The notes under the pieces were generated by a model that was given only the letters and a program-made list of their open reading frames with translations, searched no databases and was not told where the DNA came from. A stretch of 63,072 bases of DNA from Planctomycetaceae bacterium (lineage in GTDB: Bacteria; Planctomycetota; Planctomycetia; Pirellulales; Pirellulaceae): the NCBI GenBank assembly GCA_024638965.1, contig JAHEJI010000005.1:1-63072 (forward strand). Direction: 5' to 3'. Each line of letters starts with the position of its first letter. Position 1 is the first letter of the stretch. This document shows, in pieces, positions 38,369-48,156 of the stretch. A program made the translations under genes and the position numbers.

Positions 38369-41300
38369 TCACCTGTGTTCTCTTGTCGCGGTACGAATTT
38401 CGTCGGTGGCCGGATTCCACTCGATTTTGTCGCCGAAGATGTTGATTGGCTTGGAATCTCCATTTTTTCGAACTAGCTTTGAACCGCCCTCAAGGTAAGC
38501 GACCTGGTCGTCGGTATTAAATTTGATGCGCTCAGCTCTTAATTCATATTCGTCATCGATTAGCGTTGCTGAACCTTCGAGGTCCAGGCCCCACCCGACA
38601 CCGCAGACAGCATATTTCACCTGGTCTGCCGTGACGCACATCGCACTTAAGCGGCACCGCACATTGCCCGAAAAGCGAAGGTCAAAGTCCTTCAGCTCAT
38701 CTTGCAATCGAATCTCGATTTCACCCGAGGCTCCGGTGATTTGGAGTTCATGATCGTCTGTCTTGACCGATAAAGTAAGTTGTTCGCCGCGTATGAGAAT
38801 CCGGCTATTGTCAATCTCATATTGCAGCTTGCCGTCGATTTCGAGATTAAGCTTCATGATTCGAAGGGCATCGATTAGCGGTTGCAGACTTTTTCCAGAT
38901 TCCGGCTTTTTTTCGGAGCGAATCGTCAAATGCGCGTCAATTTGCGATTCCTGTTTGGCCGGTGGCGCGGCAGTTTTCGCCTTGTTTTCCGTTTTCCCAG
39001 GCAATGTACGCGATGTGGTTTCAAGGCGATGTTTTACCTCATCCAAATCGTGGACCGGTGGCAATCGCGATGAGCCCGTCACGACAGCTCTCGTTTTGCG
39101 GTTTGGTTTTTCAGGTGTGTAAATAGCGCCGGGAGTTTCTGGAAATACCGAAGTGCACTTCAGCATTACCAGCAGAGCTCCTTGTTCGCGTTTCGAGTTT
39201 TCGTGGAAACTCCCCAATACCAAAGTCTGTCCATTTGGAACGTCTAACGACGATCGAATCTGACTGGTGGAGACCTCAGGAATCTGAATCTTCGCCGTCT
39301 CCTCCCCGACCTCCACTGGAACCCCGGCCGTGTCAACAGACAAGATTTGAGAAAGCTCGACTTGGCAATCGAGATTAATCAAATCAGCATCCTTCGCAGT
39401 TGCACGCAAATTGACTCGAGTGCCTTCATTTATTACGCGAACAATTGGCTGAAACTTGTCGGTAAGTTGTCCTTGCGGATCCTTTATTCGAGTTAGCCCA
39501 ACCACAAACGGACGTTGTTCACCATCAATTACTGAGGCTTCTTGTCCACTGAACATCGTGACCGTAGGCGCCTGGATGATGTCAAATTCGATGCGTCCTT
39601 TTGCTTTTTGGACCACCGCGTCGATTAAATCTTGTTCGATAACAGCGTAGAGAACCGGAGACGTTTTCTCGACGAACGAAGTAACACTTACATTCGAGCT
39701 TGGTCTTGCATCAAAAGGGTACGTCAATGGTAGCAGCTTAGCATCCTCGACGTTTTTCGGTTGACCAGAATTCCCACTGGAGAGTGGAACCGTGGTGGAA
39801 GCCTGAACAACCTTGTGATTTGTTTTGGTTTCAAGTTTTCCCAGAGTCGCAACGTTGGAAGGGGCAACCGACCATTCGAAGCCGACATTTTTCAACTCCG
39901 CCCGTGGCATAAAAATAAATTTCGATTCCACGATAATTTGATTTACTCCATATTCACGCATGCACTGAATTCGATTCGAAACCGTTTCCAGTACTTCTTT
40001 CGTGTCGTAGACGAAGAGTCTGTCATTCAGGATCTTCATCGTCGGCTCTTGATCACCAAGCCGAATGATGCCATCCTCGCGTGCAAGTTGAATGTCCCGA
40101 GCCAGCGGTGTCGAGCTTTCCCCGTTTGGGCCAGGGTAACGGCAAGGCAGTTCGAGGATTAGCCGTTTCTCCGGCGAATGAGTTTTGAGATTTTCTTGAC
40201 GAATTTTTTGCAAGATCGAAGCGACTTCAAAAATTTGGAAGCTCCATTCCGATTTATTATTTCGCCCGTCAACTCGAGGCTTTGCCGGAACCAGAGGTTG
40301 GTTTGCCAGAATGGGTCGTTTCAGCCCCGGATCCTGAGCGAAAACCAAAGCCGCGCCAGGTAAAACAAACGCGCCGCAAATCAATATGACCAACCATACC
40401 CAAACTGGCGTTCGGCGATGATTTCCATTTCCTAAATTCATAACTCTCTCCAATCGAGCTGAGGTGATGTCCACGGCGCGGACGCCCGGCAACGCCGGAG
40501 CCACGCGGAGACGGTGTTTGTGTTCCAGAACTTCCAGCAATCCACGGGCGTAAGTCGCGGGCTGACAACCGAGGCACATGACTGTTTCTTCATCGCAACT
40601 TCGTTCGGATTCACAAGTGACCATGCGGACTGCGAACCAAACCAGGGGGTGGAACCAAAACAGGCTTTTGGCGATCGTTTGGACCAGCGCCCACCACAAG
40701 TCACCGCGTCGAATGTGGATCAGTTCGTGCGCCAGCAAAGGTTCCAACTCAGCGTTCGACTTGTTTTTCACAATCGAAGCGGGCAACAAAACCGTAGGAC
40801 GGATTAAACCAAGAACCGCAGGACCGAGAGGACCTTCCAAAACTCGTAATCGCACGCGACGATTAACGCCAAGCTGTCTAGCCAGACGCTGAAGCGTGGC
40901 ATTGAGCCCAGGTATGTCGACAAGTGAAAGCTCGCCTCCTACGGCCAACTCGCTGCGTCGTGAACGAATGCGGTAAAGAAACAAACCAAATCGCACTATT
41001 GTCACGAGAAAGCCAATTCCAACTCCGAACATCCAAATCCAAACAACCGCAGATAACCGGCGGTTTGCGATGGTCATTTTTGATTCGGAAGAATCGAGGG
41101 ACTGCATGCTTGCTGACGTCGCGGCCGGAGAGTGGGGCCGGGATTCAATTTTGCGAAACTCTCGGCTCGCCGTGTCGCGCTGGGTGTGAACAACGATTCG
41201 ATCGGCTATGAATCCTGATTTGGGAGAATCGGTGGATCTCGAGTCGAGCGGTGTTTCGCGAGCGACGACAGAAGCATCTTGAGCGGTCAACCAGCTGAAT

Positions 41301-41482
41301 GGGCTAACGGGGCTACTCCAGATCGGTGGAGTGATGCACTTGATCAACACCAGCACCCAAAGTGCATGGGCCAAGTGCGGACGATCCTTGGCAAAAAGTC
41401 GAACGGCAAACCAAACGGCGGCGATCAACAAAGTGACTTGGCATGTTTGTGTGGTCAGAAGAGAAAGCAATTCTTGAGTCAT
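38369..41482 (-). CDS. M56 (BlaR1-like) peptidase fused to secretin-like and LptA/OstA-like domains
   Basis: This 1037-aa protein has TM helices at about residues 11-30, 36-50, 145-170 and 357-382 (four in all), as in BlaR1/MecR1. The zinc-protease motif HELIH is at 253-257, and the downstream SCDEE is at 295-299. The extracytoplasmic part is unusual. At about 500-785 it resembles a secretin-type C-terminal beta domain (IEFDIIQAPTVTMFSGQEAS, VSTSQIRSSLDVPNGQTLVLG). At about 850-1037 it resembles LptA/OstA (LQYEIDNSRILIRGEQL, LRAERIKFNTDDQVAYLEGG). BlaR1 normally has a beta-lactam-binding domain there; none is visible. It overlaps the blaI-like gene by 4 bp (ATGA). Inferred role: it senses an envelope signal and cleaves or inactivates BlaI. 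Confidence 0.88.
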   Translation of the reverse strand: MTQELLSLLTTQTCQVTLLIAAVWFAVRLFAKDRPHLAHALWVLVLIKCITPPIWSSPVSPFSWLTAQDASVVARETPLDSRSTDSPKSGFIADRIVVHTQRDTASREFRKIESRPHSPAATSASMQSLDSSESKMTIANRRLSAVVWIWMFGVGIGFLVTIVRFGLFLYRIRSRRSELAVGGELSLVDIPGLNATLQRLARQLGVNRRVRLRVLEGPLGPAVLGLIRPTVLLPASIVKNKSNAELEPLLAHELIHIRRGDLWWALVQTIAKSLFWFHPLVWFAVRMVTCESERSCDEETVMCLGCQPATYARGLLEVLEHKHRLRVAPALPGVRAVDITSARLERVMNLGNGNHRRTPVWVWLVILICGAFVLPGAALVFAQDPGLKRPILANQPLVPAKPRVDGRNNKSEWSFQIFEVASILQKIRQENLKTHSPEKRLILELPCRYPGPNGESSTPLARDIQLAREDGIIRLGDQEPTMKILNDRLFVYDTKEVLETVSNRIQCMREYGVNQIIVESKFIFMPRAELKNVGFEWSVAPSNVATLGKLETKTNHKVVQASTTVPLSSGNSGQPKNVEDAKLLPLTYPFDARPSSNVSVTSFVEKTSPVLYAVIEQDLIDAVVQKAKGRIEFDIIQAPTVTMFSGQEASVIDGEQRPFVVGLTRIKDPQGQLTDKFQPIVRVINEGTRVNLRATAKDADLINLDCQVELSQILSVDTAGVPVEVGEETAKIQIPEVSTSQIRSSLDVPNGQTLVLGSFHENSKREQGALLVMLKCTSVFPETPGAIYTPEKPNRKTRAVVTGSSRLPPVHDLDEVKHRLETTSRTLPGKTENKAKTAAPPAKQESQIDAHLTIRSEKKPESGKSLQPLIDALRIMKLNLEIDGKLQYEIDNSRILIRGEQLTLSVKTDDHELQITGASGEIEIRLQDELKDFDLRFSGNVRCRLSAMCVTADQVKYAVCGVGWGLDLEGSATLIDDEYELRAERIKFNTDDQVAYLEGGSKLVRKNGDSKPINIFGDKIEWNPATDEIRTATREHR

Positions 41483-41868
41483 TGTTTCTTTCCCCCTTGA
41501 TCTAGTTGGTCAATCAAGTCACGAAGTTCGGCGATACCTTCTTTGGTAATCTCGCGTTCTTCGATCAGATGTCGGACGAGTGGCATGGTTTCGCCAGCGA
41601 AAAGTCGCTGCACGAGATCGTCGACCGTTTCTCGAATTACGGTTCGGCGTTTCGTACGGGCAGAATAGATCCGCACACGGCCGTCGAGTTTTGAGTTGGC
41701 GTGGCCTTTGGATTCCAGACGACGGAGGTAAGTCTGCACGGTGGAGAAATCCATTTTTCTTGAGTCGGGTAATGCCTCGAATACGCCCCGAACCGTAGCT
41801 GGACCGACTTCCCAAAGTGCTCGGGCCACTTCCATTTCACCCTTTGATAACGCAGGACGATCAACCAT
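41479..41868 (-). CDS. BlaI/MecI-family repressor
   Basis: This 129-aa winged-helix repressor has an N-terminal wHTH (LSKGEMEVARALWEVGPATV, DFSTVQTYLRRLESKGHA) and a C-terminal dimerisation helix pair ending KEGIAELRDLIDQL. I start at the ATG at 41868 because AAGGAG lies 6 bp upstream; longer in-frame starts run into the control region. It is co-transcribed and translationally coupled with the M56 fusion. Family knowledge: the paired M56 peptidase removes BlaI by proteolysis. Two matching dyads upstream (41934-41975) are candidate operators. Confidence 0.93.
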   Translation of the reverse strand: MVDRPALSKGEMEVARALWEVGPATVRGVFEALPDSRKMDFSTVQTYLRRLESKGHANSKLDGRVRIYSARTKRRTVIRETVDDLVQRLFAGETMPLVRHLIEEREITKEGIAELRDLIDQLDQGGKKQ

Positions 41869-41933: not shown

Positions 41934-41949
41934 GCGTACGCTTGTACGC
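41934..41949. promoter_or_regulatory. Candidate BlaI operator, site 1
   Basis: GCGTAC-N4-GTACGC is a perfect 6-bp dyad in the 226-bp region between the divergent blaI-like and S9 peptidase genes. The core CGTAC-N4-GTACG is repeated in site 2, with centres 27 bp apart. Dyads built on TAC/GTA are typical of BlaI/MecI operators. Confidence 0.7.
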
Positions 41950-41961
41950 CAAAAGATTACA

Positions 41962-41975
41962 CGTACATCCGTACG
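41962..41975. promoter_or_regulatory. Candidate BlaI operator, site 2
   Basis: CGTAC-N4-GTACG is a perfect 5-bp dyad sharing its core and 4-bp spacer with site 1. Two dimers could bind side by side and control both divergent genes. Confidence 0.7.
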
Positions 41976-42094
41976 CGAGGCAAGAGGGATTTTTGAATGT
42001 GCCAGCATTCGTGACGGGAAGTGACTACTTGAGTGATTTTGCAGGCACGATATGTTTGAGGCATTCGTTCACTACGGCAAAAAGGAGACTTTCG

Positions 42095-44047
42095 TTGGCT
42101 GGTCGAGAATTAATTCCACGTGAAGTGTTGTTTGGCAATCCGGAACGGACGTCGGTTCGCATCAGCCCCGACGGGAAGATGCTTGGTTTTCTTGCGCCTC
42201 GTGAAGGCGTAATGAATGTGCACGTCTGTCCAATCCATGACATCGACGCGGCGACGCCCGTTACCGATGATAAAACGACGGGTATCTCGCAATTCTTCTG
42301 GTGTTACACGAACAAGCATCTGCTTTTTCTTCAAGACGACAATGGCGACGAAGATTTTCACCTTTATTCTGTCGACCTCGAATCCGACAAGACGATCGAC
42401 TTGACTCCATTCGACCAGATTTCCGCCCAAGTCGTGCACCAAAGTCATCGCCATCCAGAAGAGATTTTAGTTGGAATCAATGATCGTGGCGAACATTGGT
42501 TTCACGACGTCCATCGAGTGAATGTGGCGACCGGCGAACGCCAGCTGCTGGTTCAAAACGACTCGTTCATAGGGTTTGTTTCTGACAATGACTACAACGT
42601 TCGAGTTGCAGTGACTTATTCCGCCGAAGCCGAACTGTTGATGTTCAAATCGGATTCTGACGCCGAAGGCGGATGGGTGCCGTGGATAACCGTTGGCGTA
42701 GAGGACACCCTAACGACCGCGCCGTTTGCTTTCGACAAAACCGGAAGCAAGTTGTTCTTTATCGATAGTCGAAATCGTAACACCGCTTCGTTGAAATCGA
42801 TCGACGTAGAATCGGAGACACAAGAAACACTGTTTGCAACCGATCAGGCCGACATTAACGGGGCGATGATTCACCCGACCGAAGCCAACATCGAGGCGGT
42901 AACCTACACCTATCAACGCGAGAAATGGGAAATCCTGGATGATTCGATTCGTTCTGATATTGACTATTTGAAGAAGGTCGAATCTGGCGAGTTACAAATC
43001 ACCAGTCGAACGCTGGATGACAGGAAATGGACCGTCGCCTACACACTCGACGACGGCCCGGTCAAATACTATCTGTACGATCGAGACGCTCAGAACGCCG
43101 ATTTTCTTTTTTGCCACCGACCGGAACTCGAGCGGTTGGAACTCTGTAAAATGCATTCAATGATTATCAAGTCCCGGGATGGTCTCGATCTAGTCAGTTA
43201 TTTGACTTTGCCGATCGATAGTGATCCAGACAATGGCGGTCGGCCGCAGACGGCGTTGCCAATGGTCTTGCTGGTTCATGGCGGCCCTTGGCACCGCGAT
43301 ACCTGGGGATACGATCCTATGCATCAAATGTTGGCAAATCGGGGCTATGCCGTGCTGGCGGTAAACTTTCGAGGAAGCACGGGATTTGGAAAAAACTTCA
43401 TTAACGCGGCCAACCTTGAGTGGGCTGGCAAAATGCATGACGACTTGATCGACGCGGTTAACTGGGCCGTCAACGAAGGCATCGCAATCAAAGACCGAAT
43501 CGCAGTCATGGGGGGAAGTTACGGAGGTTACGCCGCCCTGGTGGGACTGACTTTTACGCCCGACGTGTTTGCTTGTGGGATCGACATCGTGGGTCCAAGC
43601 AACTTGATCACGCTGATGCAAAACCCGCCCCCGTACTGGATGCCGATCATGCCCATGATGCAGACGCGAGTCGGTGACTTTATGACCGAAGCAGGGGGAG
43701 AGTTTTTGGAGTCCCGTTCGCCGCTTTTTCACGTCGACAAAATCTCGCGACCCTTGTTGATCGGTCAAGGCGCAACGGATCCGCGGGTCAAACAAGAGGA
43801 ATCGGACCAAATCGTCGAGGCAATGACGGCGAAGAACATTCCCGTTACCTATGTGCTGTTTCCCGAAGAGGGACACGGATTCAGCCGGCCGGAAAACGAT
43901 ATCTCATTCAATGCAATTACCGAGGCGTTTTTGGCTGAGCATCTCGGCGGGCGTTACGAACCGATTGGCGACGCTTTTAAGGGGGCAAAATTCGAAGTGC
44001 CATCTGGCGCTGAGGGAGTACCTGGATTGGCCGCGGTGGTGAGCTGA
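42095..44047 (+). CDS. S9 prolyl-oligopeptidase-family serine peptidase
   Basis: This is a cytoplasmic peptidase of about 650 aa. The N-terminal half is a beta-propeller (SVRISPDGKMLGFLAP, FFWCYTNKHLLFLQDDNGDED). The C-terminal half is an alpha/beta hydrolase with nucleophile in GGSYGGY (about residue 475), Asp in GATDPRVKQEES and His in EEGHGFSRP. No signal peptide is seen. I use the TTG at 42095 because AAGGAG lies 7 bp upstream and homology-like sequence begins there (REVLFGNPERTSV). The open frame extends further upstream into the operator region but has no good start. It is divergent from blaI and may belong to the BlaI regulon. Confidence 0.92.
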   Translation: MAGRELIPREVLFGNPERTSVRISPDGKMLGFLAPREGVMNVHVCPIHDIDAATPVTDDKTTGISQFFWCYTNKHLLFLQDDNGDEDFHLYSVDLESDKTIDLTPFDQISAQVVHQSHRHPEEILVGINDRGEHWFHDVHRVNVATGERQLLVQNDSFIGFVSDNDYNVRVAVTYSAEAELLMFKSDSDAEGGWVPWITVGVEDTLTTAPFAFDKTGSKLFFIDSRNRNTASLKSIDVESETQETLFATDQADINGAMIHPTEANIEAVTYTYQREKWEILDDSIRSDIDYLKKVESGELQITSRTLDDRKWTVAYTLDDGPVKYYLYDRDAQNADFLFCHRPELERLELCKMHSMIIKSRDGLDLVSYLTLPIDSDPDNGGRPQTALPMVLLVHGGPWHRDTWGYDPMHQMLANRGYAVLAVNFRGSTGFGKNFINAANLEWAGKMHDDLIDAVNWAVNEGIAIKDRIAVMGGSYGGYAALVGLTFTPDVFACGIDIVGPSNLITLMQNPPPYWMPIMPMMQTRVGDFMTEAGGEFLESRSPLFHVDKISRPLLIGQGATDPRVKQEESDQIVEAMTAKNIPVTYVLFPEEGHGFSRPENDISFNAITEAFLAEHLGGRYEPIGDAFKGAKFEVPSGAEGVPGLAAVVS

Positions 44048-47416: not shown

Positions 47417-47929
47417 TCATCGCCTCTTTCTTGTCGAGCGACCGATGTTTCGGGACAGGAAGTCTGCTTTTTTCTGCACGTCGACTGTGCCGTTGGGGTC
47501 GCTCCTTCGTCGGAAGGCGGCCCGGTCCTGAGCCTCCTTCGTCACGGCCGCTTCCATTTCCTCGAGGATAATGATCCGCGTCGTGACGGAAGCGTTGCTG
47601 GAGGACGTGTTATAGCCAATTCCCTGGTTTCGAAAGGGGCGGTTCAAAAAGGGGATACTCGAAAGTCCAGGGACTCCGCGACTTGAGCGGCCGGCCGCGA
47701 ATCCCGAGTTGCCACCAAGCAGCATTGTTCCACCATCCGGCACGCTGACCACGGTTTGCACACCAAACGTGCTAATACTCGGGAGCTGAATCGTGACACC
47801 CGTATTCGGCGTAAAGTTGCCTTGTCCTGTGCCTTGCCCAGATGCCGGCGATTCAACACCAACCAAAATAACGCCAAATAGCAAGATGAATCCAGTTACT
47901 GGGCGCAAGATAGAATGCCAAGCGTTCAT
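47417..47929 (-). CDS. Short secreted secretin-like protein
   Basis: This 170-aa exported protein starts at the ATG at 47929 (GAGG 6 bp upstream); a signal peptide spans about 1-30. The middle matches the C-terminal signature of type II/III secretins: VVSVPDGGTMLLGG, a disordered loop, VPGLSSIPFLNRPFRNQ and TTRIIILEE. The N0/N1 domains and the rest of the beta-barrel are missing, so it cannot form a secretin ring as such. The C-terminus is basic. It heads the ABC operon. The M56 fusion at 38369 contains a similar domain. Its role, perhaps an assembly or docking subunit, is unknown. Confidence 0.78.
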   Translation of the reverse strand: MNAWHSILRPVTGFILLFGVILVGVESPASGQGTGQGNFTPNTGVTIQLPSISTFGVQTVVSVPDGGTMLLGGNSGFAAGRSSRGVPGLSSIPFLNRPFRNQGIGYNTSSSNASVTTRIIILEEMEAAVTKEAQDRAAFRRRSDPNGTVDVQKKADFLSRNIGRSTRKRR

Positions 47930-48156
47930 GTTAAGCCTCAACTAAATCGGATGCCCCAATTTCTTTTATCGTAACGAATTGGCCGTCGATTTCAAACATT
48001 TTGGACTGGTTTTGAAGGGTGGTTAATTTTTGGTCATTTGCGGTTGACGATAGCATCTGCAGGCCATAACTTAACGTGCTTCCCCCGAGGTTGGTTTTTG
48101 GGGAAACGGTGAATCTGCGCCGATTCGCGCGGACATTCAATGTGGAGTTTAAACTG

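Follow-up and report, generated by a model that had tools for sequence, protein, structure and literature searches.

Relays of the BlaR1 type are chiefly known for sensing antibiotics, as in the penicillin-sensing switch of Staphylococcus, and the envelope biology of the Planctomycetota is little understood. In the BlaR1 paradigm, as set out in PMC7593790, a sensor outside the cytosol is joined to a zinc protease that becomes activated and a repressor that is degraded. Here we analyze a gene pair of this kind in a 63,072-nucleotide stretch of DNA (‘the window’; contig JAHEJI010000005.1 of assembly GCA_024638965.1, Planctomycetaceae bacterium), in which a blaI-type repressor gene lies directly upstream of a gene for a 1037-residue M56 sensor-protease. 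Judged by its parts, this M56 protein is a BlaR1-type relay, and by its sensor it is a new variant, in which a secretin-like module (by sequence not a full secretin) precedes a jellyroll resembling LptA. The clade of M56 proteins to which it belongs often builds its sensor halves from outer-membrane export modules. The components of the gene pair are as follows.

38369..41482, minus strand: M56 sensor-protease gene, 1037 amino acids, with a secretin-like plus LptA-like ectodomain (Pfam, NCBIfam, family profiles, fold match)
40499..41443, minus strand: Peptidase_M56 domain, residues 14-328 (Pfam E 2.3e-37)
39158..40252, minus strand: secretin module with the preceding alpha/beta region, residues about 411-775 (alignment A3, A3 profile against PDB, AlphaFold model)
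39182..39586, minus strand: Secretin PF00263 match, residues 633-767, profile positions 8-130 of 169, lip segment absent (Pfam)
38375..38959, minus strand: LptA/OstA-like beta-jellyroll, residues 842-1036 (A2 profile, AlphaFold model, fold match)
41479..41867, minus strand: blaI-type repressor gene, its stop overlapping the ATG of the M56 gene by 4 bases (Penicillinase_R E 2.8e-27)

The frame at 38369-41482 is open throughout. The original prediction had likened its N-terminal 390 residues to BlaR1, and this likeness is borne out by the Peptidase_M56 match together with HELIH at residues 252-256 and ESERSCDEE from residue 291; His252, Glu253 and His256 of the HExxH motif are invariant across the six rows of alignment A1. 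Hydropathy segments lie at residues 5-32, 37-55, 142-172 and 356-385, with a marginal fifth at 220-238. The adjoining blaI-type gene, which the original prediction had not mentioned, likely starts at the ATG at 41867 (the mechanical open reading frame extends to 41952). With the M56 domain it upholds the proposal of a BlaR1-type relay, an identity that we infer from homology. An ordinary β-lactam sensor orthologous to BlaR1 or MecR1 would likewise have the M56 domain, BlaI and the paired operators described below, but the Pfam matches of the M56 protein up to E 1 include no penicillin-binding domain, just as had been predicted for this ectodomain, and the NCBIfam scores (66 of 400 bits for BlaR1; 41.9 of 1200 bits for MecR1) fall far under the cut-offs; we therefore hold such a sensor to be very improbable. 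The NCBIfam models for MshL and PilQ also match, each under its cut-off.

Bearing in mind that the source genome is a draft (292 contigs, 5.7 Mb, 88.6% complete), we considered an assembly or frame artefact that fuses separate genes. The order of M56, secretin and LptA-like parts is found again in L053, L056, L057, L058, L060 and L061, which come from separate genome records; because the fusion recurs in independent planctomycete genomes, we rule out this artefact, to which we attach a negligible probability.

The secretin assignment is carried by several lines of evidence. The Pfam match to PF00263 has an E value of 3.2e-10 (40.3 bits, against a cut-off of 27.5), and when the A3 profile (16 rows) was compared with the PDB, all 19 matches at E<=0.1 were secretins, the best being PilQ (E 2.7e-16). 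AlphaFold was unusable on the whole protein as a single sequence (predicted local distance difference test, pLDDT, 37.3); the sensor half, modelled from a 20-row alignment, reached a mean pLDDT of 70.5, with 206 of 658 residues under 50. The top Foldseek match of this model is the BfpB secretin (E 1.4e-8), and a viral fold library returned weak matches only (three at E<=0.001).

What distinguishes the fused module is its end. All 23 fused Pfam secretin matches (20 from the clade and three from a distant set described below, taking the best stretch) end at or before position 132 of 169; the six free-standing secretin matches in the source genome reach position 168-169. In the true secretin L184 of that genome (the only one of six secretin frames in which our motif picked out the lip for reading), GQTVVISGL is followed by the lip, RGTPILSDLPVIGPLF, and then by LLIILTP. 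The M56 protein of the window reads GQTLVLGSF, a short turn and then LLVMLKC, and other readable fused rows look alike. It seems that the lip has been cut out of the fused modules and the last strand retained; since the lip is absent, the fused module probably forms no pore. The six full-length secretin matches of the source genome are possible partner candidates.

Elsewhere in the window, a small protein (47420-47941, minus strand) consists of little besides a secretin end with its lip (VPGLSSIPFLNRPF, by eye), which is the part that the M56 fusion lacks; its gene precedes ABC-transporter, MacB-like and ZnuA-like genes.

The C-terminal domain is less apparent in the single sequence: Pfam searches of the M56 protein left the LptA part undetected, and the NCBIfam LptC model matched residues 978-1032 below its cut-off (E 0.007; 15.9 of 38 bits). 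We also built a profile, A2, of 190 positions from nine homologous C-terminal domains. The ten best of its 12 PDB matches at E<=1 are LptA, LptH or LptD (best E 1.4e-6) and two unrelated proteins (E 0.02 and 0.43) make up the rest; the matched stretches extend over part of the profile length. The AlphaFold model of the jellyroll part matches LptA (2r19) with a template-modelling (TM) score of 0.73 by target length and a root-mean-square deviation (rmsd) of 3.4 over 135 columns, the block mean pLDDT being 79-94 over most of the domain. Thus the sensor half that had been foreseen, a secretin-type domain combined with an OstA/LptA-like one, is supported by PF00263 for the former, and by the family profile and fold match for the latter. 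The corresponding family searches fared unevenly: Peptidase_M56 and PF00263 both matched, but OstA PF03968 misses the domain in the window, the likeness to LptA being reached through the family profile and fold.

A search of the sensor half against 99 genomes, the source genome among them, with some loci read, yielded six near M56-secretin relatives (L037, L038, L039, L040, L042 and L047) with M56 parts 43-76% identical to that of the window by BLAST (for L038, over 160 residues only). A blaI gene 64-75% identical to the window’s lies upstream of five of them; the frame of L038 begins near a contig end. In a distant M56-secretin set (L041, L043-L046), blaI is 26-30% identical to the window’s. 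A first profile scan of genome contigs with the lone M56 protein confirmed no relative; the same scan with the six-member alignment A1 gave 44 loci (L053-L096), of which 43 are titled as groups that we take to belong to the Planctomycetota. L053, L054, L055, L057 and L061 are apparently the same records as L037, L040, L039, L047 and L042, respectively, judging by equal contig and protein lengths. Two further clade members, L131 and L136, surfaced among the intended controls. Across these 47 clade loci (the window, the 44 and the additional two), a blaI-type gene is upstream in 45, including L092, where repressor and M56 part form one continuous frame; we found no such gene at L063 or L096. The frame in L092 (L092:1207-4881; Phycisphaerales) encodes BlaI and M56 in a single 1225-residue protein with carboxypeptidase-regulatory-like domains. 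At L055:3-3961, a second M56 frame (1185 residues) with a probable blaI adjoins the fusion operon on the opposite strand.

We then took a Pfam census of 38 clade proteins (the window’s, 35 of the 44 loci, L131 and L136), in which Secretin, Secretin_N, STN, POTRA and Poly_export were scored as export modules; the remaining nine loci, whose frames are short or broken or run into a contig end, were left out. Such a module is present in 25 of 38 at E<=0.01 and in 22 at E<=1e-3; without the six A1 seed members, the former count is 21 of 32. Fifteen proteins exceed a curated cut-off: 12 with Secretin, two with POTRA (L069 and L072) and one with Poly_export (L085). The controls were 20 M56 proteins hand-picked down the list of matches listed, skipping known clade members and fetched without regard to domains; less the two that proved to be clade members, and with three other M56 proteins of the source genome added, they number 21. 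None of these 21 has a counted module at E<=0.01; they hold CarboxypepD_reg, WD40, ankyrin, S41 and other domains. Outside the counts stand PQQ_2 (L089), OEP (L092), LptD_N at E 0.02-0.04 (L056, L058 and L061) and, in controls L132, L133 and L143, CooC_C (‘CS1-pili formation’; above cut-off in L132), which sits among carboxypeptidase-regulatory and Ig-like repeats.

Our own profiles give a concordant view. At E<1e-6 the secretin profile finds 23 of 39 clade proteins (the 38 plus L038, its 16 seed rows included), five of five in the distant set, which was found via its secretin module, and none of the 21 controls. By iterated profile, the LptA-like domain occurs in nine of the 39 clade proteins (those of the window, L053, L038, L060, L061, L056, L057, L058 and L131), in none of the 21 controls and in none of the five distant-set proteins. 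All eight carriers placed on a quick M56 tree, from which L081 and L038 were left out, cluster together in a supported group with 12 rows. The same tree puts L072 (POTRA) beside L073 (secretin) at a fork of 99, and L085 (Poly_export) beside L063 (secretin) at a fork of 81. Another row, L094, which we counted as module-less, falls with two controls and may lie outside the clade. The M56/blaI relay is conserved while its ectodomain diverges.

Upstream of blaI, the window contains a putative promoter with two palindromes and a divergent gene.

41935..41948, unstranded: operator 2, CGTACGCTTGTACG, with one mismatch, just downstream of the putative -10
41954..41959, minus strand: putative -10, TAATCT, of the blaI promoter (by eye)
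41962..41975, unstranded: operator 1, CGTACATCCGTACG, with one mismatch, in the spacer between the putative -35 and -10
41978..41983, minus strand: putative -35, TTGCCT, with an 18-base spacer (by eye)
42095..44047, plus strand: divergent gene of S9 prolyl-oligopeptidase type (proposed TTG start, by eye), with the operators in the common intergenic region

Paired palindromes upstream of blaI genes follow the consensus CGTACANNTGTACG. A pair of TACANNTGTA sites, each with at most one mismatch and 18-34 bases apart from start to start, precedes 35 of 45 blaI genes (seven of 45 with no mismatch); 100 shuffled sets averaged 0.03 and never exceeded 1. We predict that these palindromes are BlaI operators. 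In the source genome (5.7 Mb), the looser pair GTACNNNNGTAC-N6-34-GTACNNNNGTAC has a single occurrence, at the blaI promoter, and its reversed control none. With the match G113:C43 left out, we fetched 17 loci bearing this pair from 100 genomes of the family: five (L149, L157, L161, L163 and L164) look by eye like short tandem repeats, and blaI and M56 stand alongside in all of the remaining 12, which include the window’s. Because the operator pair lies only at the blaI promoter in the source genome, the circuit is predicted to regulate itself, perhaps along with the divergent S9 peptidase gene; as a neighbour, this peptidase is common only to the window and L087, a third listed member, L057, appearing spurious.

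In L083, L089 and L136 the operator half-site is CGTTCA instead of CGTACA, and BlaI is more divergent there, which offers a natural test of repressor-operator co-variation.

That the pair stands at its own promoter only would also suit a different arrangement, in which the ectodomain is itself the output and the protein a scaffold or assembly factor of the periplasm whose level BlaI/M56 merely holds constant; the size of the ectodomain (about 650 of 1037 residues) is consistent with this. However, the invariant HExxH of the six A1 rows and the blaI gene retained in 45 of 47 loci are what a sensor would have, and the ectodomain is the fast-changing, exchanged part. We consider this arrangement distinctly unlikely.

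We hypothesize instead, with about an even chance of being right, that the ectodomain of the BlaI/M56 relay imitates parts of outer-membrane export machines and monitors their assembly or substrates. Mimicry is favoured because the relay is conserved, the ectodomain is swapped between near relatives, and the swapped parts belong to outer-membrane machines. In this scheme, the BlaI-type repressor would sit on the two palindromic operators around the -10 and shut off its own promoter. The M56 protein would cross the inner membrane, with its protease domain in the cytoplasm and its C-terminal half in the periplasm, where the lip-less secretin module followed by the LptA-type jellyroll would act as a mimic of export parts. 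Its natural ligands might be the usual ones of such parts: secretin that has yet to assemble, partners of secretin, the edge of a jellyroll bridge of Lpt type, or a lipid in transit. Altered assembly or flux would then activate the M56 protease, BlaI would be inactivated, and the operon would be derepressed.

Several observations weigh against this hypothesis, which is least secure as regards the ligand, the output and the Lpt system. As to the fold, the Foldseek secretin matches of the model have low TM scores (0.14-0.41 by target) and an rmsd of 16-34; support for the secretin fold is therefore local and does not extend to a full superposition. In the census, 13 of 38 clade proteins have no counted Pfam module at E<=0.01, although profiles built here find a secretin or LptA-like part in three of these (L057, L061 and L131). 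The distant M56 set also bears a secretin module, and thus the secretin fusion is not confined to the M56 clade of the window. As to the operators, the looser pair pattern is found in 17 of 100 genomes of the family; because the reversed pattern matches in 10 of 100, only a position beside blaI supports it.

The output is constrained by single operator sites. With one mismatch allowed, the source genome has five, against 11 for the reversed control: two are in the operon itself and three inside reading frames. Since these sites are fewer than in the control and those outside the operon all lie inside reading frames, no outer-membrane output gene is predicted. Single sites are no commoner than the reversed control in four of six carriers, the source genome included: the counts for the other five, G010, G015, G001, G035 and G094, are 5, 3, 9, 7 and 16, with controls of 8, 5, 7, 11 and 6, G001 having a slight excess. 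Among the flanking genes of the operon, no real family is conserved beyond blaI-M56. A stricter single-site pattern, GTACANNTGTAC, gave one site in the genome against five in the control and was dropped as too strict, the operon’s own sites differing from it. The 16 sites of G094, against six in its control, possibly reflect a wider regulon there.

Evidence for an Lpt system in the source genome is weak. PF03968 has no match there at E<=1 (this model also misses the window’s own domain), PF04453 reaches E 0.019, below its cut-off, and the A2 profile run over the genome finds the window’s own domain only. The candidate is the following frame.

L194:1794-5087: LptD-like frame L194, 1098 amino acids, contig C66 (PF04453 E 0.019, PF03968 E 0.056; likeness by eye)

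The same locus has a small lipoprotein-like frame (L194:7288-7800, minus strand) with the motifs DDIQYFP and GPEFKL; the former is also present in the linker of L061, and the latter in that of L057.

A secretin module lacking its lip is also found in the source genome as a free exported protein.

L052:7279-8445, minus strand: free lip-less secretin-module protein L052, 388 amino acids, contig C256 (read by eye, as is export from its N-terminus)

This protein has the RPFVVG signature of the M56 fusions, and its query matches frames of 461-471 amino acids (L027 and others) in several genomes of the same genus. Its existence weakens the argument that the module has to sense secretion. The lip-less secretin fold could rather be a generic planctomycetal periplasmic module, serving a signal unrelated to outer-membrane assembly (a peptide, a polysaccharide or an antibiotic), a possibility that we deem unlikely without dismissing it. 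Such standalone proteins and the secretin module of the distant M56 set are in its favour, but it does not account for the POTRA, Poly_export, STN and LptA-like parts that also occur in the clade and in none of the 21 other M56 proteins. The original prediction that the relay reads the state of the outer membrane or of lipopolysaccharide transport is accordingly upheld in part: the clade’s pattern of export modules fits it, but the fused secretin is lip-less, a free lip-less protein exists, and profile searches of the source genome put no Lpt component above cut-off.

Sensors built from secretin, POTRA, polysaccharide-exporter and lipopolysaccharide-bridge parts suggest monitoring of outer-membrane machinery and not of antibiotics. 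If the mimicry hypothesis is true, M56/BlaI would join the envelope-stress relays, and sensing through a ‘disarmed machine part’ would be a principle worth seeking elsewhere; with the operators mapped, the circuit predicted to be self-regulating and the sensor modules exchangeable, a reporter would offer a direct test. More tentatively, and with doubt prevailing, we propose that the Planctomycetota have their own family of BlaI/M56 relays for envelope stress, with mimicry as the sensing principle: in each, a disarmed lip-less secretin, POTRA, Wza-type export domain or LptA jellyroll would engage the partners or substrates of the real machine and so relay the machine’s state of assembly across the periplasm. 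Such relays would form a new class of quality-control sensor for the outer membrane, the sensor part being swapped under a constant relay. Among the matches listed in the open-licence literature, we found no paper on M56-secretin fusions; PMC12578637 was set aside, as in its available part M56 denotes reagent numbers and BlaI genes are absent.

How, then, does this system compare with those already described? With BlaR1/MecR1-BlaI/MecI it has in common the HExxH M56 protease, hydrophobic segments flanking the protease domain, an adjacent blaI-type gene and paired palindromic operators around the -10. It differs in its secretin plus LptA ectodomain, in which no penicillin-binding domain was found, in a gene order that places blaI first with a 4-base overlap, and in an operator pair confined, within the source genome, to its own promoter. 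The PilQ/GspD secretins resemble it in the secretin core, by Pfam and by the family profile against the PDB, whereas the fused copies examined are without a lip, are tethered to an inner-membrane protease and probably form no pore. LptA, LptC and LptD_N (OstA) resemble it by family profile matches and predicted fold; here, however, the domain is a C-terminal appendix of a sensor protease, its single sequence scores below the curated cut-offs, and lipid binding would be hypothetical. Finally, DegS, as described in PMC7593790, similarly couples a protease and a periplasmic sensor domain to the control of transcription; DegS is a serine protease with a PDZ sensor, whereas the protein described here is an M56 metalloprotease with a repressor for a partner and a machine part for a sensor.

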